Below are positions 1-17,473 of a stretch of 21,894 bases of DNA, in pieces (within the stretch, counting starts at the first letter, position 1; the number at the start of each line of letters is the position of its first letter). Both the position numbers and the translations under genes were made by a program. Location of the stretch: the IMG/VR virus record IMGVR_UViG_3300008262_000410, positions 1-21,894 of that record; one strand, 5' to 3'. The DNA is from a virus. The notes below the pieces were generated by a model. It saw only the letters and a list, made by a program, of their open reading frames with translations. It had not been told where the DNA came from and did not search any database.

Positions 1-805
1 CCAATAGAAGGCGGTTACCTCCTGGTCTTGTTGTGGGGCGGGTGCCTCCTCCGCTCGGGTTCTTTCCATCAGGAGGTAGGACAACAGGAGGCTGGCCCCC
101 AGGTTTCTGTCCACCAGGGAAATTGGCCCCAGGCATTCCAGGAATCGTAGGAAATAATCTAGATAATTTAGTAATTCCGTCTACTAATTTATCGAACCCA
201 TTAAGTAAACCTTTAAAACCGGACATTAAAGTACTTGATAATAAAGAGATCGCACCAACTATTCCTGCAAGAAGAATTTTACCTAAGCCAGATAACATTC
301 CTCCAGATGCGCCGCCGCCCATATCTAAACCCGACATTCTTCTAGCAATAGCTTCGGCAAGCTTTTCTCTCTCAATTGCACGTTTAGAATCTGTACTTTG
401 CCTAGCTATAAAATCTATATTTCTAGCTTGTCTTTCGGTTATATCCCTAAGTGCGCTCATTTCCTCCATCATTTTTTGTTGATATTTAGATGGGCCGAAT
501 ACCTTACTAAATAAATTTGTAAAGAACCCTTTATCGGGTTGCGCTTTACCTCCAAAGGATGAGCCGAAAGATCCCTTGCCCTTTCCTGCTAGATAACTTT
601 TTATTTCTGAAATACCGCTACCAAGTTTAAAAACTTCCCTTTGTATATCTTTATTTTCTTTATTAGATGAAGATCTCCTATTCTTAAAGATTTCATCAGA
701 TATAGTATGCAATATCTTCGATTGTTCTCGAAGACTATCATTTTGTGCCTTTAGGCTATCTATGATAACTCTATCGGTTGGGTTCAACTTATCGAAAGGT
801 AACAT
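1..805 (-). CDS. tape-measure-like virion protein, 3' end beyond window
   Basis: The frame is open from an ATG at 805-803 to the window edge, giving about 268 residues with no stop. It begins MLPFDKLNPTDRVI. The first ~150 residues are charged, Gln/Lys/Glu-rich and probably helical or coiled-coil. At about residues 165-205 there is a Gly/Ala/Leu/Ile-rich hydrophobic stretch (LLAGIVGAISLLSS and following amphipathic helices). From about residue 218 the chain is Pro/Gly-rich low complexity (for example PGGQKPGGQPP). Charged helices plus a membrane-like segment, directly downstream of gp26 and a chaperone-like ORF, fit a tail tape measure or gp29-like hub protein. That role is inferred from position and composition, not from a recognised motif. 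The + strand ORF at 33-482 is a shadow of this gene. The start is 3 nt after the stop of the preceding short ORF, which suggests translational coupling. Confidence 0.6.
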   Translation of the reverse strand, partial: MLPFDKLNPTDRVIIDSLKAQNDSLREQSKILHTISDEIFKNRRSSSNKENKDIQREVFKLGSGISEIKSYLAGKGKGSFGSSFGGKAQPDKGFFTNLFSKVFGPSKYQQKMMEEMSALRDITERQARNIDFIARQSTDSKRAIEREKLAEAIARRMSGLDMGGGASGGMLSGLGKILLAGIVGAISLLSSTLMSGFKGLLNGFDKLVDGITKLSRLFPTIPGMPGANFPGGQKPGGQPPVVLPPDGKNPSGGGTRPTTRPGGNRLLL

Positions 806-808
806 GTA

Positions 809-1003
809 TTATCCCTTAAATGCTTTTTGTTTCAATTTTTCGTTTTGTTCGCTAATGTGTTCTATAAGCATAGTGACGTAAATATCTCTTTCCCATGGTA
901 ACATATTTTCTATTTCAGTTAACGAATAATTATGACTATTCATTAATGAAAAATTTAACTTATAATAGTTAAGAAGACCCTCATGAGAAAGAGTTAAACG
1001 AAA
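809..1003 (-). CDS. tail assembly chaperone-like extension, reached by putative -1 frameshift from gp26
   Basis: This frame is open from 1024 to a TAA at 811-809. From the putative slip at 1000-1006 it encodes about 64 residues: FFRLTLSHEGLLNYYKLNF, then SLTEIENMLPWERDIYV, then a charged tail. The first ATG in the frame is at 943-941 and would give 44 residues, leaving out the LTLSHEGLLNYYKLNF part, which has no start of its own. The protein-like sequence on both sides of that ATG suggests the frame is entered from gp26 by -1 frameshifting. It lies between gp26 and a tape-measure-like gene, where lambda G/T-type chaperone frameshifts occur; T4 has gene 51 after gene 26. The WERDIYV motif resembles short ORFs I recall after gp26 in marine T4-like phages; this needs a search. 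Confidence 0.6.
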   Translation of the reverse strand, partial: FRLTLSHEGLLNYYKLNFSLMNSHNYSLTEIENMLPWERDIYVTMLIEHISEQNEKLKQKAFKG

Positions 1004-1263
1004 AAATTTTGTAGACCTTCTAATTTAACTTCATTCTTAGTTCCACACTTACTACAATTTTGCTCAACAGTTTGAGTAATTTTTGGCATGGTAACAAAGA
1101 ATTTTTCTAACTTTTCAAACTGACTTCTTGAAAAAGAATTAACAAATTCTATTAACTCTTCTTTTGTATAATCTGTGTATTGTTGCTCATCTGTAAATAC
1201 CACTTTGATACAGGATGACAGTTGATTTCGCTCTAATATTAATGAACAAATATTCAATATCAA
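994..1263 (-). CDS. 26: gp26-like baseplate hub/chaperone protein, C-terminal fragment
   Basis: This 89-codon frame encodes the C-terminal part of a gp26-type protein. The recognisable part starts near SSCIKVVFTDEQQ and continues through YTKEELIEFVNSFSRSQF, KLEKFFVTMPKI, a CSKCGTKNEV Cys pair and LEGLQNFF at the end. The only start at its 5' end is a TTG at 1263 without a convincing ribosome binding site. The first ~15 residues are an out-of-frame reading of the N-terminal fragment's coding sequence, so independent initiation is doubtful. Together with the fragment at 1187-1471 it forms one gene shifted by one frame between about 1225 and 1212. The frame ends at a TAA at 996-994, immediately after the slippery run at 1000-1010. 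Family assignment rests on remembered cyanophage gp26 sequence. Confidence 0.55.
   Translation of the reverse strand: MILNICSLILERNQLSSCIKVVFTDEQQYTDYTKEELIEFVNSFSRSQFEKLEKFFVTMPKITQTVEQNCSKCGTKNEVKLEGLQNFFV
1000..1010 (-). other. candidate -1 ribosomal frameshift site
   Basis: On the - strand the gp26 frame reads CAA AAT TTT TTC GTT TAA. This contains U UUU UUC (1006-1000) and the overlapping A AAU UUU (1009-1003), both of the X XXY YYZ slippery type. A Shine-Dalgarno-like AGAAGG lies at 1021-1016, about 10 nt upstream, a spacing known to stimulate -1 slippage in dnaX. The zero-frame stop follows at 996-994. A small palindrome, CTCATGAG, lies about 15 nt downstream; I see no strong pseudoknot. 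Confidence 0.6.
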
Positions 1264-1471
1264 AATTAGGAAGTTCTTTAACTTTTAGTTTATTAAATGT
1301 ACAAACATCTACTAAATCTGTAACTATTTTATAAATTTCTTCAGAATCCGACTCTAATGCGGTTAAGAGAATTTTATATTCTTTAACTAAGAATGGTCTA
1401 TATTTTACTTTTTCTTCGGTAGAAGGTAAAATCAATTCATAGGTTGGTGTTTCTAATTTAGGTAAAGCCAT
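1187..1471 (-). CDS. 26: gp26-like baseplate hub/chaperone protein, N-terminal fragment
   Basis: This 94-codon ORF starts at an ATG (1471-1469) with GAGGA a few bases upstream. It begins MALPKLETPTYELILPST, followed by KVKYRPFLVKEYKILLTALE and FDIEYLFINIRAKS, a pattern typical of gp26 in T4-like marine phages. Homology-like sequence ends at about Ser83 (codon 1225-1223); the last 11 residues, TVILYQSGIYR, look like an out-of-frame tail before a TGA. The C-terminal half continues in the +1 frame (994-1263). The two parts would total about 157 residues, against 208 for T4 gp26, so an out-of-frame internal deletion of a middle segment is more likely than a single-base error. It follows the tube-fold gene by 14 nt in the same operon. 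Confidence 0.6.
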   Translation of the reverse strand: MALPKLETPTYELILPSTEEKVKYRPFLVKEYKILLTALESDSEEIYKIVTDLVDVCTFNKLKVKELPNFDIEYLFINIRAKSTVILYQSGIYR

Positions 1472-1485
1472 GTTATGTCCTCAAT

Positions 1486-2319
1486 TTATGGTATCGTTTC
1501 AATGTCTGGAGATAGTATAGGCCCATCTCCTAAACCGCTTTCTACTCTGTTTGGTTGCTCTCGACGTATTCTAATACTACGGTCGTCTTCAGTTTCTCCC
1601 TCAAGATATTCTGTATCTCGTCTTACTGTGTTTGCTATAATACCTCTTTCAGTGTTTATACTTGGCAATGATCCCCTTTCATCAGTATTTTCTAAGATAC
1701 TCTTTAGTAAAGGATTATTGGTATTTACAACTTGTTGCTCCCATACTTCAGGATACCTAACCGCATTAGGAATCTTATGATAAGGAAACCATCTTCTATA
1801 CGAAAAGGTAACATTTAGTTTGTGTACTTGATTTTGTGTACTATTGTTAAGATCAAGTAAAGCCACGCTTCTAGGAAAAGCATCTTCCAATGTTATCGCA
1901 TATGTGATATTATCTTTTTCGTCTAACTGAAATATAGTAATAGGTACGGTATAATTATCTGCATAATGCACAAAATATTGAAACGGGTCTACGATTATAT
2001 TAGTCCAAGCATCAAAAAATCCTTTTACATCCATATCCGTATCAAGCAAAAATGTCATAGTTATACCTTCTCCTCCATACTCAGAATTAAAAGGTCTTTG
2101 ATATGCTGGTCCGTATACTCTTTGCTGTTTAACACCTATTGTTTTAGATGGCAAATTTGCGGATTCGCAAAATAGGCTTATCAATCTGTTAGTCCAAATA
2201 GTCTGCGTAAGATCTGCCAAACCTTTTGGCGTTGGAAAGGATATTTCAAATCTATTAGGTTTAGCTAATCCTCTAATTCTTACTTCAGTTTGAAAATCGC
2301 TTATAGAAAAATTTGCCAT
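1486..2319 (-). CDS. gp19/gp54-type tail tube-fold baseplate protein
   Basis: A 277-residue protein beginning MANFSISDFQTEVRIRGLAKPNRFEISF. Features typical of the T4-like tube family in marine phages are visible: a Leu/Phe-rich N-terminal strand pattern, an SLFCESANLPS segment, VKQQRVYGPAYQRPF, the EYGGEGITMTFLLD strand, FFDAWTNIIVDP, and a late AFPRSVALLDLNNSTQNQ with VTFSYRRWF. These fit the gp19 tail-tube fold. The location beside gp4 and gp26, rather than beside a sheath gene, suggests the gp54-like tube initiator at the baseplate rather than the main tube subunit. T4 gp54 is somewhat longer (about 320). The C-terminal ~75 residues are charged and Arg-rich, with RRDTEYLEGETEDDRS. The start is 3 nt after the upstream stop, consistent with coupled translation. 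Confidence 0.65.
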   Translation of the reverse strand: MANFSISDFQTEVRIRGLAKPNRFEISFPTPKGLADLTQTIWTNRLISLFCESANLPSKTIGVKQQRVYGPAYQRPFNSEYGGEGITMTFLLDTDMDVKGFFDAWTNIIVDPFQYFVHYADNYTVPITIFQLDEKDNITYAITLEDAFPRSVALLDLNNSTQNQVHKLNVTFSYRRWFPYHKIPNAVRYPEVWEQQVVNTNNPLLKSILENTDERGSLPSINTERGIIANTVRRDTEYLEGETEDDRSIRIRREQPNRVESGLGDGPILSPDIETIP

Positions 2320-2322
2320 TTG

Positions 2323-2892
2323 TTATTTGTACTTTCTTTTAGTGTTTTTCCAAACCTTGCCCATACTTTGTTGTTTAAATCCTTCAACCGGTAGCATGCT
2401 GGCGGTTTCCCAATCGGCAAAATTTACTTTCAGGAATCTACTTCGCAATTGCGTATTAAGATATCGTTTTACGCAAGCAGTCGCAGCTAAAAATCTTGAA
2501 GAACTATTTAGTATTTGCCAGGATATTTTAATTTTAGTATTTTCGTCGACTCTGCTATCTGTGGCTAATTTTTTTAAATCTCCCAACAACTTAAATCTTG
2601 CGCCGTATGGAAGATAGTGCAGATTAATTCCTATAAATCCGTCAGCAGTTTTGGAGAAAGGAAGAACTAATGGGACGGTATCATAATAGGGTAATACGTT
2701 TTTATATTTTGGATCATATAAAAACATATACATATATCCAGGAGTAACCACATTTGATAATCTTTGTCCGCGTATCAGTTGTTGCCCCGTTAGTCCTGAG
2801 GATAAATTTATGACAGTGTTTTTATACCAGCGAAAAGCTTTATCCTGGTCACCCTTCTGCATTCTAATCTGAGTAAAGATATTTTCAGCCAT
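2323..2892 (-). CDS. conserved-looking virion-associated protein, function unassigned
   Basis: A 189-residue protein, MAENIFTQIRMQKGDQDKAF at the start and a very basic end (KVWKNTKRKYK). The middle holds YMYMFLYDPKYKNVLPYYDT, PLVLPFSKTADGFIGINLHY and LPYGARFKLLGDLKKL, with alternating hydrophobic and aromatic residues typical of a small beta-rich structural protein. There is no signal peptide or membrane segment. The ATG overlaps the gp4 stop (ATGGCTGA, 8 nt overlap), so the two genes are translationally coupled. I recall similar proteins next to gp4 in marine T4-like phages but cannot give a reliable name; a head-completion or neck role is suggested only by its partner gene. The basic C-terminus could contact DNA. 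Confidence 0.7.
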   Translation of the reverse strand: MAENIFTQIRMQKGDQDKAFRWYKNTVINLSSGLTGQQLIRGQRLSNVVTPGYMYMFLYDPKYKNVLPYYDTVPLVLPFSKTADGFIGINLHYLPYGARFKLLGDLKKLATDSRVDENTKIKISWQILNSSSRFLAATACVKRYLNTQLRSRFLKVNFADWETASMLPVEGFKQQSMGKVWKNTKRKYK

Positions 2893-12692: not shown

Positions 12693-15600
12693 ATGTCTGA
12701 CAAAAATTTAAAAGAATATATAGTAACTCTACATAGTTACGAACACCTAGATAGTTTCTATGAGGATATGGAAACACCGGGTGGTAACCTATATATTCCT
12801 GATCGGGCAGTGGATTTAGTTAATCGTAGACCCATAAGTCGAAATACTCACTATTTACTTACAGAAGAAGAAGCTCGTTTAATCAGACAGGATCCAAGAG
12901 TTTTAGATGTGGATATTCCTGTTGACCATAATCCTCTTACAGTTAGGAGTTATTCTTGGTCACAAACCAATACTTTTAGTCCGCAGCTGCCGCCTTCAAC
13001 GACGGATAAAAATTGGGGGCTTCTTTATTCAACCTCAGAAACAATAAACAGTTCTTTAGATAGTTTTTCTTCGGTTTCCGCTACTGTAACCAGACCTTTT
13101 TCGGGAAAAAATGTAGATTTGGTTATGGCTGAATCAACTATTAAGAAAAATCACGCAGAATTTGCTAAAAACGCTGATGGGACAGGCGGATATAGAACTA
13201 TAGAAACCAATTGGTATGGATACGGTCTTGGTTCGCCCCCAACAGTTACACCTCAAGAAACCTCACCATATAATTATAGTTATGTCGGATTTCATGCAAC
13301 CCATACCGCAGGTACTGCAGCGGGGAATACTCAGGGCTGGGCGAAAGATTGTAATATCCATTTTAATGTTCCAATTTATGCAGGATCTTTTCCAAATTAT
13401 CAGGGCCCCTGGGATTATATTAGAACATGGCATAGCTGGAAAAAAGTTAATGCTATAAATCCAAATACAGGAATACATAATCCTACAGTTGTTTCTTTAA
13501 GTACAAACGTTAGAACAAAACTTTTTACCTTTGGATTGGGAACGATACATTATAGGGGAGTATCATATCCTGGTCCTTGGGCTCGTAATCCTTCTCGCAC
13601 AGATCGAGACAATCCGGGGGCATGGACTAACGGAACTGTAAGTTTAGCGGATGTAGGTTTTAGAGAAGTAAGGTCTGACGATAATATACTTTGGTATGTA
13701 TTCGCTGGGCAAAGCATGGTTGCAGAAAATGCTGATTTAACTGACGCGATTAATGATGGGGTAATTATAGTTCAATCTGCAGGTAATCATTCTTCTAAGG
13801 TGGTGCGCCCAGGCGATCCAGATTATAATAATTATGTTATTGCCTTAGATGATGGCAAAACCTATTATCAAAATAGAAATGAATGGACAGCAGATGTTAT
13901 TGCAGTTGGCAATCATACTGCCGCAAGAAGACTAGGATATACCACAGATACTGGACCTGCTATTACGATTTGGGCCCCTGGCACAAACATTATCTCCTCA
14001 ATATCAGACAGTGCAGAAAGAAATGAGTTTTCTGATCCGCGCGGATTAAACAATGATAAGTTGCTCTCAATATCTGGTACTAGCATGGCAGCGCCGCAGG
14101 TCGGCGGAGTTCTTGCCTGTTTGGCAGAACTGTGGCCTTCGGCGACGCAATCGCAAATGAAGAATTTTATTCTAACTCATGCTAGAAGTAGAATGACTAG
14201 TTCTGCGTTTACTATCTTTCCAAACACCCTTTCATATAGAGATTCAGATACAACAGATAAAACTTTATATTATCCAAATTTTAGTTTTAGTGTTTCTCCG
14301 AACAAATCTTCAGTGTCATCTGATGAAATAGTTGTTATTAACATAACAGGTTCTATAGATTCACCCCTTACCTGGGAATCTTGGTCAGCAAAATATAACA
14401 TTCCCCAAGATGAGGGACAACTTGTTGCGGCTGCATTATACACTAATAACAACTTGTTAGGAAATTATGGACCTTCATCTACTCCTTTTTATGGTTTGTA
14501 TAGAGAACCAGATGCCGAAGGGTTAGCATATTGGCATAGTCAATGGATAGCAAGTGGTAAAAATCTTGAGACAGTTAAGCCCGCATTTGCTCTAGGAATA
14601 CCTTCAAGTGATACTATAGATTATGCAAGAATTAGAACTAATTCGAAGACCTTTTTAGAAACCAACAACGGTAGTGTTTTTTACGATGGTGCTTTCGATT
14701 TGCCTGTTGGGTCTAGAGTATATCTTACAGAAGAAGGTAATGCAACTGCACAGGATTTTATTGATGGATTAACTAAAATTCCTGTAACTATTACTGGACC
14801 AGTTACTACTGTTACTCGCAAAGTCAGCCCGAATAGAACAACATCAAGAACAAGTACTTTAAAATTACGCACAGGTGGATATTCTGGCACTGTACAAGCA
14901 ACTGCTTCTTCTATATCTATTATAGGAGTTGCACCACCTCCCCCTCCACCCGTTGTATCTACTTATAGTTTCGGAGGTATTCCGACCTCAATCAATGAGG
15001 GAGCTACAGGAACATTTAATGTAAATACAACTAACGTAGATAATGGTACAACTTTATATTGGACAATTAATAATGGTACCTCAGTAAATGCGGATTTTAC
15101 CGCAGTTTCAGGATCCTTAATTATTAATGGTAATACTGGGTCATTTACAATAACACCAACTGCTGATAATTCTACAGAAGGAAATCAAACCTTTACCGTT
15201 CAACTTAGAACAGGTAGTATATCTGGAACAATTGTTGCAACAAGTTCTAGTGTAACTATAAATGATACTAGTTTAAATCCTGCGCCTGCAACACCTACAT
15301 ATGGATTTAGTTTGGTTCCTTCTGCGATTTCAGAAGGAAGCGCTGAAACATTCGGTGCAACTACAACTAACGTAAGTAATGATACAACTTTATATTGGAC
15401 AATTAGCCATGGCACAACAGTAAGTGCGGATTTTAGCGCTTCGTCGGGATCATTTACCATAACAAATAATCAGGGATCCTTTTCAATAACACCTATAGCG
15501 GATAACACAACTGAAGGTCCTCAGGTTTTCACAGTTCAACTTAGAACAGGTAGTATATCTGGAACAGTTGTTGCCACAAGTTCTAGTGTTACCGTAACTG

Positions 15601-15857
15601 ATTCAAGTACCACGCCTCCACCATCTACGCCCATTTATCAATTTCCTGGAGAAATTCCTACATCCATAGATGAGGGAGATAGCATTACGTATAATTTTTC
15701 AACAACGAACGTACCGAATAATACAACTTTATACTGGACAATTGCACATACAAGCACAGATGCTTCAGATTTTTTAGAAACATCTGGGACATTTACTGTA
15801 ACAAACAACTCTGGGTCGTTTATAGTAAGACCTAAATCGGATGCGACACCCGGTTAA
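12693..15857 (+). CDS. subtilisin-like (S8) virion protease with Calx-beta-like repeats, cut short
   Basis: A 1054-residue protein. Residues ~8-77 resemble an I9 propeptide (KEYIVTLHSYEHLDSFYED ... VLDVDIP). The S8 domain spans ~100-510: the His region FHATHTAGTAAGNTQGW has H201, the oxyanion Asn is N365 (QSAGN), and the nucleophile is S464 in SGTSMAAPQ. At the expected catalytic Asp (VDVVIVDG-type in relatives) the sequence is VDLVMAES, with E147. Residues 561-599 are a WESWSAKYNIP module, followed by a DUF4214-like LYREPDAEGLAYW part. A PPPPPP linker near 750 precedes Calx-beta-like repeats of ~112 residues starting near Y758, Y870 and Y982. The third is cut by TAA at 15855 and continues in the next gene. 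No signal peptide; likely a tail or fibre-associated protease. Confidence 0.85.
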   Translation: MSDKNLKEYIVTLHSYEHLDSFYEDMETPGGNLYIPDRAVDLVNRRPISRNTHYLLTEEEARLIRQDPRVLDVDIPVDHNPLTVRSYSWSQTNTFSPQLPPSTTDKNWGLLYSTSETINSSLDSFSSVSATVTRPFSGKNVDLVMAESTIKKNHAEFAKNADGTGGYRTIETNWYGYGLGSPPTVTPQETSPYNYSYVGFHATHTAGTAAGNTQGWAKDCNIHFNVPIYAGSFPNYQGPWDYIRTWHSWKKVNAINPNTGIHNPTVVSLSTNVRTKLFTFGLGTIHYRGVSYPGPWARNPSRTDRDNPGAWTNGTVSLADVGFREVRSDDNILWYVFAGQSMVAENADLTDAINDGVIIVQSAGNHSSKVVRPGDPDYNNYVIALDDGKTYYQNRNEWTADVIAVGNHTAARRLGYTTDTGPAITIWAPGTNIISSISDSAERNEFSDPRGLNNDKLLSISGTSMAAPQVGGVLACLAELWPSATQSQMKNFILTHARSRMTSSAFTIFPNTLSYRDSDTTDKTLYYPNFSFSVSPNKSSVSSDEIVVINITGSIDSPLTWESWSAKYNIPQDEGQLVAAALYTNNNLLGNYGPSSTPFYGLYREPDAEGLAYWHSQWIASGKNLETVKPAFALGIPSSDTIDYARIRTNSKTFLETNNGSVFYDGAFDLPVGSRVYLTEEGNATAQDFIDGLTKIPVTITGPVTTVTRKVSPNRTTSRTSTLKLRTGGYSGTVQATASSISIIGVAPPPPPPVVSTYSFGGIPTSINEGATGTFNVNTTNVDNGTTLYWTINNGTSVNADFTAVSGSLIINGNTGSFTITPTADNSTEGNQTFTVQLRTGSISGTIVATSSSVTINDTSLNPAPATPTYGFSLVPSAISEGSAETFGATTTNVSNDTTLYWTISHGTTVSADFSASSGSFTITNNQGSFSITPIADNTTEGPQVFTVQLRTGSISGTVVATSSSVTVTDSSTTPPPSTPIYQFPGEIPTSIDEGDSITYNFSTTNVPNNTTLYWTIAHTSTDASDFLETSGTFTVTNNSGSFIVRPKSDATPG
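14964..15854 (+). repeat. tandem Calx-beta-like coding repeats, 336-nt period
   Basis: Three consecutive coding repeats begin at 14964, 15300 and 15636, exactly 336 nt apart. Each carries ISEGxx or INEG, TTNV...TTLYWTI, ADF, GSFxITP and TEGxQxFTVQLRTG. Units 1 and 2 share a perfect 33-nt repeat (15198-15230 and 15534-15566) and another 23-nt repeat (15047-15069 and 15383-15405), pointing to recent duplication. Unit 3 is more diverged and is interrupted by the 32-nt insertion at 15855-15886. Confidence 0.85.
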
Positions 15858-15886
15858 AAAAAGTAACTAAGGGAGATATTTCTTTG
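15855..15886 (+). other. 32-nt insertion carrying stop, SD and start inside a repeat
   Basis: Unit 3 aligns without gaps to units 1 and 2 if these 32 nt are removed: SDATPG joins AAQTFVIQVRTG, matching ADNTTEG-PQVFTVQLRTG. The spacing confirms it: the conserved TT(C/A)CAA..TAGAAC strand in unit 3 starts at 15905, 371 nt after unit 2, where 339 nt is expected. The segment holds TAA, an A7 run (15856-15862), a second TAA, GGGAGA (15871-15876) and TTG (15884-15886). Confidence 0.7.
15871..15876 (+). promoter_or_regulatory. Shine-Dalgarno-like GGGAGA before a TTG start
   Basis: GGGAGA, preceded by AA, sits 7 nt before the TTG at 15884. It is the only strong ribosome binding site near the break, and decides the start of the second repeat protein. 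The previous stop is only 26 nt upstream, so reinitiation is also possible. Confidence 0.6.
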
Positions 15887-17473
15887 GCAGCTCAAACATT
15901 TGTAATTCAAGTTAGAACGGGTGGGGTCACTGGACCTGTTATTGCCACAAGTCCTACTATTACATTAAATGATACTAGTACCGTATCTTCTCCTTATACG
16001 TTAACTACCAGTGCAAGCGAAATAAATGAAGGCTCTGAAGTAACTATTAGTGTTTATACTGTTGGTCTACCAAACGGAACTCTGTTACCATATACAATTT
16101 CTGGATCAGGAATAGACTTAGATGATTTCGTTGGATTAACATCCTTATCTGGTTCTTTTAGAATAACAAATAATTTTGGAAGCGTAAGGTTAGTTCTAAA
16201 AAATGATCTAAAAACTGAATTAGATGAAACGCTAACATTAACATTGACCAGTACAGGAAATAATGAGAGCATTAATGTAATTATACGAGATACGTCTAAG
16301 ACTACTAGCTTAGCAAACTTTTTTGTCAGTTCCCCGGTATCAGTAGTAGAAGAAGGTCAGGTTGCGAGATTTGATATTAGAGCAACTAATTTAGAACCAG
16401 GTACAGTTGTTCCTTATAGAATTTTAGGTATATCCCAAGAGGATTTAACTGGAGATTCCCAAACTGTAGGATATGTAACTTTTGTATCGGGTGCAGTTGA
16501 GGGAGAAACTTATGCAAATGTAAGTTTGTCAATATATGAGGATTTTATAACTGAGGGACCTGAAAGTATAGTTTTACTTTTAGAACCAAGTTTTCCTTAT
16601 ACGTTACAATTATCTTCAACCATTTCAATAAAGGACACTACTCTTAATCCCGGACCTACGTATAGTATAACTGCAAATAAAAATAGAGTATTCGAAAATG
16701 ATACTATAGTATTTACGTTAGTCGCAACAAATGTACCAGCGGGTGGTATTGTTCCTTGGCAAATTGCAGAATTCGAACCAGACACTCCCGAAATAACTGT
16801 AAGCGATTTTTCGGGCATAACTAGCCTTACCGGAAACTTCCCTCCTCTGGTAGAAATTTCTACAGGGGTTTTTAGCTCAAATATAACTTTATCTATACGA
16901 GATGATTTAGTTTTTGAACAGTCTGAATATTTTTATGTGTTTATACCAGGCACAAGAATAGGTTCTCAGGTTGTAGAAATTATAGATTCAGGTAATACAT
17001 TAATAACATCCGACGCTACTTTTTCCGGAAATATATTGGTTAATTTTTTAGACCCCGCGGTGTTACGGGCAAATTTAGGTAGTTTAGCTTCGGGGGTTAG
17101 TTATTGGCAAGACACCACAGGACTAATCTCAGAGAATATGGTTATACAAGGAAAAACGCCATATGCAACTGAAGACTCCTTGGCATTGTATCAACCATTT
17201 TCTTACGTAATACGCTCAAAAGTTTCTATAGAAGAGTGGAGAGACTCAATAAAGGCTCTATTGCACCCCGCAGGAATGGTTATTTTTGGGGAAATAAATA
17301 ATGAAACAACTACGGAAAACTTGTTAAGTTTAGAGGTTAAAGCAGTTTCTGATTCCACAATACGAACACAGGATTCCTTAACTATAGATGATACGGAAGT
17401 AAATGCAAGTACAACATCTATAGGTGGCTCAAATGTAACTGTAGATTCTCTGACATTTTCCTTTAATCTTTAA
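15884..17473 (+). CDS. Calx-beta-like repeat tail protein, continuation of the protease gene
   Basis: A 529-residue protein starting at TTG 15884. Its first residues, AAQTFVIQVRTGGVTG, are the last strands of a Calx-beta-like unit whose first part ends the upstream protease gene. Three more diverged units follow, each starting near ITENEG-type segments (INEGSEVTISVYTV; VVEEGQVARFDIRAT; VFENDTIVFTLVAT). The C-terminal ~130 residues are different: WQDTTGL, LYQPFSYVIRSKVSIEEWRD and LLHPAGMVIFGEI (H461-P-A-G464). I recall the HPAG..FGE pattern from C-termini of virion proteins in marine T4-like phages, where it may be an attachment domain. Together with the upstream gene it is likely one ancestral protein of about 1580 residues. 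It is probably a baseplate or fibre adhesin; glycan or protein binding is not shown. Confidence 0.75.
   Translation: MAAQTFVIQVRTGGVTGPVIATSPTITLNDTSTVSSPYTLTTSASEINEGSEVTISVYTVGLPNGTLLPYTISGSGIDLDDFVGLTSLSGSFRITNNFGSVRLVLKNDLKTELDETLTLTLTSTGNNESINVIIRDTSKTTSLANFFVSSPVSVVEEGQVARFDIRATNLEPGTVVPYRILGISQEDLTGDSQTVGYVTFVSGAVEGETYANVSLSIYEDFITEGPESIVLLLEPSFPYTLQLSSTISIKDTTLNPGPTYSITANKNRVFENDTIVFTLVATNVPAGGIVPWQIAEFEPDTPEITVSDFSGITSLTGNFPPLVEISTGVFSSNITLSIRDDLVFEQSEYFYVFIPGTRIGSQVVEIIDSGNTLITSDATFSGNILVNFLDPAVLRANLGSLASGVSYWQDTTGLISENMVIQGKTPYATEDSLALYQPFSYVIRSKVSIEEWRDSIKALLHPAGMVIFGEINNETTTENLLSLEVKAVSDSTIRTQDSLTIDDTEVNASTTSIGGSNVTVDSLTFSFNL

Follow-up and report, generated by a model that had tools for sequence, protein, structure and literature searches.

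The closest described systems are the tail assembly chaperones gpG and gpGT of phage lambda which, together with other frameshifted chaperones, were described by Xu, Hendrix and Duda (2004) and are reviewed in PMC5009743. In Pseudomonas phage Adele and the Andersonviridae, a -1 frameshift was proposed at a poly-T sequence, GTTTTT, located at the end of TAC-N and 5' of the tape measure gene (PMC12846349). As cited in PMC12846349 and PMC10885494, the T4-like tail assembly chaperones TAC-N and TAC-NC were identified by Vladimirov, Gautam and Davidson (2022, Virology 566:9-15). According to PMC10885494, in some T4-like phages a short gene exists alongside a distinct, long fusion gene, and PMC12846349 presents poly-T slip sites as known in T4-like TAC-N genes, crediting Vladimirov et al. 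2022. Judging from these citing passages, a frameshifted tail chaperone in T4-like phages belongs to a known kind (G/GT type) and has apparently already been noticed. The published T4 work argues, by its title, for a mechanism other than frameshifting; the extent of frameshifting in the superfamily is therefore worth stating. The present analysis may add quantitative breadth, the spacing of a Shine-Dalgarno (SD)-like element, a covarying hairpin in marine relatives and a direct contrast with T4.

Organisation of the locus

The window is the whole stretch of DNA that was analysed, 21,894 nucleotides long (positions 1 to 21,894 of IMG/VR virus record IMGVR_UViG_3300008262_000410). The following features were delineated around the gp26 gene, listed from 5' to 3' on the minus strand:

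1486..2319, minus: tail tube protein, directly 5' of gp26 (PHROG 45 tail tube, E 5e-40)
1222..1471, minus: N-terminal part of gp26, putative short tail-assembly chaperone (TAC-N), ATG at 1471 (PF12322 positions 2-77/219, E 2.8e-21; PHROG 150 baseplate hub)
1221..1222, minus: junction left by an out-of-frame deletion of 215 bp in gp26 (blastn and direct comparison); the near-identical contigs L002 and L003/L082 do not have it
994..1221, minus: C-terminal part of gp26, ending ...EGLQNFFV, stop TAA at 996-994 (PF12322 positions 143-218/219, E 1.1e-20), joined to the N-terminal part in L002
1016..1021, minus: SD-like AGAAGG, spacer to the heptamer 9 nt; most relatives have GGAGG or GAGG
1000..1006, minus: slippery heptamer U UUU UUC, putative -1 frameshift site, conserved across relatives
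977..994, minus: weak candidate hairpin ACTCTT / GAGGGT, 5 nt 3' of the heptamer (predicted fold z -1.4)
809..1003, minus: -1 frame extension, gp51-like C-terminal domain (TAC-NC) (PHROG 634 baseplate hub assembly catalyst, E 3e-26; the match begins at the first residue)
2..805, minus: next ORF, truncated at the end of the contig; a tape measure candidate from its position and its counterpart in P-TIM68

The Pfam family PF12322 (T4 baseplate protein gp26) matched in two pieces scoring 76.7 and 74.8 bits, for a curated cut-off of 24.5, and relatives of the gp51-like extension are encoded in 571 phage records. The gene order, namely tail tube, gp26, gp51 extension and then a long ORF, is like that of the lambda V-G-T-H genes, the 3' ORF being here a candidate tape measure gene only. 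No tape measure profile matched the window's own, truncated copy of this ORF. The ORF at the corresponding position in the cyanophage P-TIM68 gave weak matches to tail length tape measure profiles (phrog_4197, E 2.7e-07). Rfam, tRNA and solved-structure sequence searches returned nothing useful. The structure predicted for gp26, with a mean pLDDT of 87.9, gave matches to many viral gp26 models; against the PDB no significant match was obtained, the HK97 chaperone 2ob9 reaching the highest probability in the list (0.38) with an E-value of 1.2. The probable chaperone role of gp26 and its extension is thus proposed on account of their position, their homology with T4 proteins and the literature.

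Three other ORFs of the window were noted. Two are found in the T4-like baseplate region: a large one (12693-15857) containing a subtilase (S8 peptidase) domain, and another at 15884-17473; both match Calx-beta weakly. A gp2-like DNA end protector ORF (window 2323-2892) ends 12 residues before its counterpart in L002 (644-1249), apparently because of a small indel near the 3' end.

Deletion in the gp26 gene of the window

In the window gp26 is not a single open frame: the ATG at 1471 reads to a stop at 1187, and the match to PF12322 lacks positions 78-142. Over this region the contigs L002 and L003 share 99.9-100% identity with the window, apart from 215 additional bases that both carry at 1222/1221; the gp26 of L002 is intact, with 230 residues. 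The deletion shifts the frame, so that in this contig gp26 is disrupted before the slip site and the heptamer cannot be reached in frame from the gp26 ATG. Its junction was searched for in other viral contigs and was not found. It is either an assembly artefact or a rare or defective variant. A second recoding event, into the third frame inside gp26, was considered and rejected, the two near-identical contigs having 215 more bases and an intact gene. A second damaged gp26 was observed in the family, in the marine contig L219, where an internal deletion apparently shortens gp26 and removes the slippery site at its end.

Since the gp26 of the window is broken, the case for frameshifting rests on the intact relatives. 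In the near-identical contigs the slip-site region is identical to that of the window, with the same heptamer.

Relation to T4 gp26 and gp51

A profile was built from in silico frameshift fusions, in which the junction lies near position 235. It aligned T4 gp26 over positions 11-235, i.e. up to the slip site, and T4 gp51 over positions 23-279, across the junction and into the extension. T4 gp51 spans the junction and T4 gp26 ends there; T4 gp51 is thus the homologue of the frameshift fusion and T4 gp26 that of the short form. This result agrees with the chaperone identification credited to Vladimirov et al. 2022 by the papers that cite it. The initial sequence-only reading of this locus, made by a model, had described T4 as having separate genes 26 and 51, which holds, T4 gp51 itself being the long form. 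It had also taken gp26 and its extension as the G/GT pair of this lineage, an idea supported by T4 gp51 aligning as one protein across the junction, by T4 gp26 stopping there and by the gene order, with its candidate tape measure gene.

In T4 both forms are encoded by separate, divergently transcribed genes, 26 and 51, whereas the window has one gene with a putative frameshift site. The predicted short and extended forms share their N-terminal domain, within one gene with a -1 extension. T4-type separate TAC genes are absent from the contig, which is part of a phage genome: in both the window and L002, the extension is present only in the -1 frame relative to gp26 and has no start codon. Two separate genes appear to have replaced the frameshift trick in T4.

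The putative slip site and its conservation

On the minus strand, the gp26 frame ends with CAA AAT TTT TTC GTT TAA. It includes a heptamer of the X XXY YYZ form in the correct phase, and the downstream ORF is in the -1 frame, which translates as FRLTLSHEGLLNYYKLNFSLM... up to a stop at 811-809. The first start codon (ATG, GTG or TTG) of this frame is the ATG at 943, and 5' of the heptamer the frame is open for 6 codons only, without a start codon. The sequence-only reading had described the same gp26 ending with TTTTTTC at 1006-1000, an SD-like AGAAGG about 10 nt upstream (at 1021-1016, with a spacer of 9 nt) and a -1 frame open to 809 with its first ATG at 943, and was accurate on these points. 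It had missed the break in gp26.

Loci were gathered from IMG/VR, from phage records and from one genome contig, 244 in all. That contig holds the single locus recovered by a scan of bacterial genomes, and is probably a virus contig in a MAG. Removal of duplicate contexts left 188 distinct loci with both parts on one strand. The non-redundant set comprised 129 loci, of which 125 have Phe-Phe at the site. The gp51-like ORF is in the -1 frame in 187 of the 188 distinct loci, finished phage genomes among them. The exception is Synechococcus phage S-SCSM1 (L148 1490-1560), in which TTTTTTC is kept and a short insertion behind the stop of gp26 moves gp51, here starting with an ATG, into the other frame. 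This frame change could possibly be a sequencing error or a loss of frameshifting. For the window, one could suppose that the split frames are themselves an error of sequencing or the decay of a once-fused gene, the contig having a separate 215-bp deletion in gp26; with the same arrangement in 187 distinct loci and the heptamer shared by near-identical contigs, this supposition is already refuted by the relatives and can practically be dismissed.

The site reads TTTTTTC in 116 and TTTTTTT in 9 of the 125 non-redundant Phe-Phe loci, and the heptamer is identical in every row of two alignments (75 and 29 rows). The first Phe codon is TTT throughout a codon alignment of 121 sequences, and the codon preceding the Phe pair ends in T in 125 cases for 80.9 expected. 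As a putative stimulatory element, GGAGG, GAGG or AAGG ends 9-10 nt 5' of the heptamer in 119 of the 125 loci. Phe-Phe elsewhere in the same genes is encoded by TTTTTY in only 43 of 122 cases, against 125 of 125 at the site (p ~2e-33), and mostly by TTCTTT (72/122), while the Glu codon at the SD-like site is GAG in 95 of 112 cases against 866 of 3141 elsewhere (p ~4e-35); both p-values assume independence of the loci, which does not hold for related sequences, but the effect is too large for this to change the conclusion. The biases in heptamer, codons and SD-like motif indicate selection on the RNA and not only on the protein. With the -1 frame in 187 of 188 distinct loci and TTTTTTY in 125 of 125, the slip-site arrangement is far beyond chance.

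In the Ackermannviridae phages Bue1 and SFP10 (L144 1750-1911 and L145 1771-1953, respectively), a gp51-like ORF in the -1 frame overlaps the end of gp26, and the overlap reads GATTTTCATTTAATNTTTGAAATTGATTT in both. No U UUU UUY heptamer is present in these two phages, which suggests another mode of recoding or initiation.

Start codons of the gp51-like ORF

That ribosomes start within the -1 frame 5' of the heptamer was considered and rejected, as no start codon exists there in 123 of the 125 loci. GenBank annotations imply a different possibility: ribosomes that terminate at the gp26 stop would reinitiate (translational coupling) and make gp51 as a separate small protein. In about half of the non-redundant loci, codon 6 of the -1 ORF is indeed an ATG (codon 1 being the slipped UUU), situated just past the gp26 stop, and this ATG is common among marine relatives. 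None of the 79 loci having the -1 ORF ATG shows an SD-like motif 4-15 nt before it. In phiM19, Vibrio VP04, phiM9, Mendera and D507, the ATG overlaps the gp26 stop (TGATG or TAATG); coupled initiation is therefore possible in those lineages, where it may add to frameshifting or replace it. At the other end of the range, 41 of the 125 non-redundant loci contain no start codon between the point where the -1 ORF opens and the end of its 9th codon, and in the window's clade ATG, GTG and TTG are absent from the first 9 codons in all 30 loci, FFRLTLSHE being conserved there. Records are divided too: some annotate gp51 as a gene on its own, but the region is unannotated in DSL-LC03 and S-PRM1. Reinitiation would moreover leave the conservation of the heptamer and of the SD spacing without a reason, and T4 gp51 is the fused form. 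We therefore regard a separately initiated gp51 as improbable.

The sequence-only reading had named a start codon and an SD directly before LTLSHEG in homologues as an observation that would contradict frameshifting. The ATG does occur in many marine homologues, but lacks the SD-like motif, and the slippery run is kept in all of them. The same reading had proposed conservation among related loci as a check, and the heptamer, the SD-like motif, the missing start in the clade and the RLTLSHE segment are all kept.

Downstream RNA structure

In marine relatives (75 loci), a hairpin of 10 bp begins 5 nt 3' of the heptamer, with 92.5% of cells paired, and would constitute a second stimulatory element. 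Its covariation score is 0.149, for 0.095 in shuffles (0/500 reach it) and at most 0.063 when the partners are slid by 1-3 columns. One of its pairs is UA in 40, AU in 16 and GC in 8 cases, a synonymous Ala position being linked there to a Glu/Val/Ala change. RNAalifold run on all sequences found nothing, and the supported hairpin is found in the marine subset only. In the window, a short hairpin of six pairs can be drawn at 994-977 within a fold of -7.9 kcal/mol, at the same position as the marine hairpin; it is not significant (z -1.4) and shows no covariation in the window's clade. The sequence-only reading had seen no clear pseudoknot downstream, which was fair for the window, but it missed this drawable hairpin.

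In E. coli dnaX, an SD-like element lies about 10 nt upstream of the slippery sequence A AAA AAG and a hairpin about 5 nt downstream. The loci analysed here resemble dnaX by the SD-like element, the heptamer and, in marine relatives, the spacing of the hairpin. They differ from it by the sequence of the heptamer, U UUU UUC, and by a hairpin that is weak in the window's clade.

Poly-T runs can also cause polymerase slippage, and the site contains a run of six T, from which mRNAs with an altered number of U might be produced. The run is however short, its position 7 stays C in 116 of the 125 loci rather than extending it, and an SD-like element at fixed spacing and a covarying hairpin act at translation; transcriptional slippage is accordingly very improbable.

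Proposed mechanism

Programmed -1 frameshifting yielding a short and a long tail-assembly chaperone of the G/GT type is very probably the best explanation of these data. We infer both the occurrence of frameshifting and its efficiency from the comparison of sequences, on which basis gp26 and the downstream gp51-like ORF are best explained as one recoded gene. Ribosomes translating gp26 would reach U UUU UUC, where the upstream SD-like element, assisted in marine relatives by the downstream hairpin, would make a fraction of them slip back by one base, the two Phe codons re-pairing as UUU UUU. Most ribosomes would terminate two codons further on and release the short chaperone TAC-N. A minority would go on in the -1 frame and produce gp26 fused to a C-terminal domain of about 60 residues (TAC-NC). 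If these proteins act like lambda G/GT, TAC-N would coat the tape measure protein, and TAC-NC would recruit tail tube subunits through its extra domain.

As in lambda, a short protein would be extended by a -1 frameshift near the 3' end of its gene, which lies here between the genes of the tail tube and of a candidate tape measure protein. Unlike lambda, the phage is a contractile T4-like one, the family is PF12322, and the site combines U UUU UUC with an upstream SD-like element, plus a hairpin in marine relatives. With Adele and the Andersonviridae the locus shares a poly-T -1 site at the TAC-N end; the phage families and the motif differ.

Implications for the T4-like superfamily

Frameshifting with an SD-like element, U UUU UUC and a hairpin is somewhat favoured as the ancestral and commonest arrangement in the T4-like superfamily (comprising here Kyanoviridae, freshwater relatives and some Sinorhizobium, Agrobacterium, Pseudomonas and Vibrio phages), the T4 genes 26 and 51 being derived from it by gene duplication. 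If so, what hundreds of cyanophage records list as gp51 would be half of a single recoded gene, wrongly annotated as a gene of its own. If frameshifting does take place, the annotations 'baseplate hub subunit' and 'baseplate hub assembly catalyst' of many cyanophage and T4-like records would merge into one recoded chaperone gene, and it would be explained why gene finders miss gp51 or start it at the wrong place. The superfamily would then offer an evolutionary contrast between recoding, in most relatives, and separate genes, in T4, as means of setting the ratio of the two protein forms.
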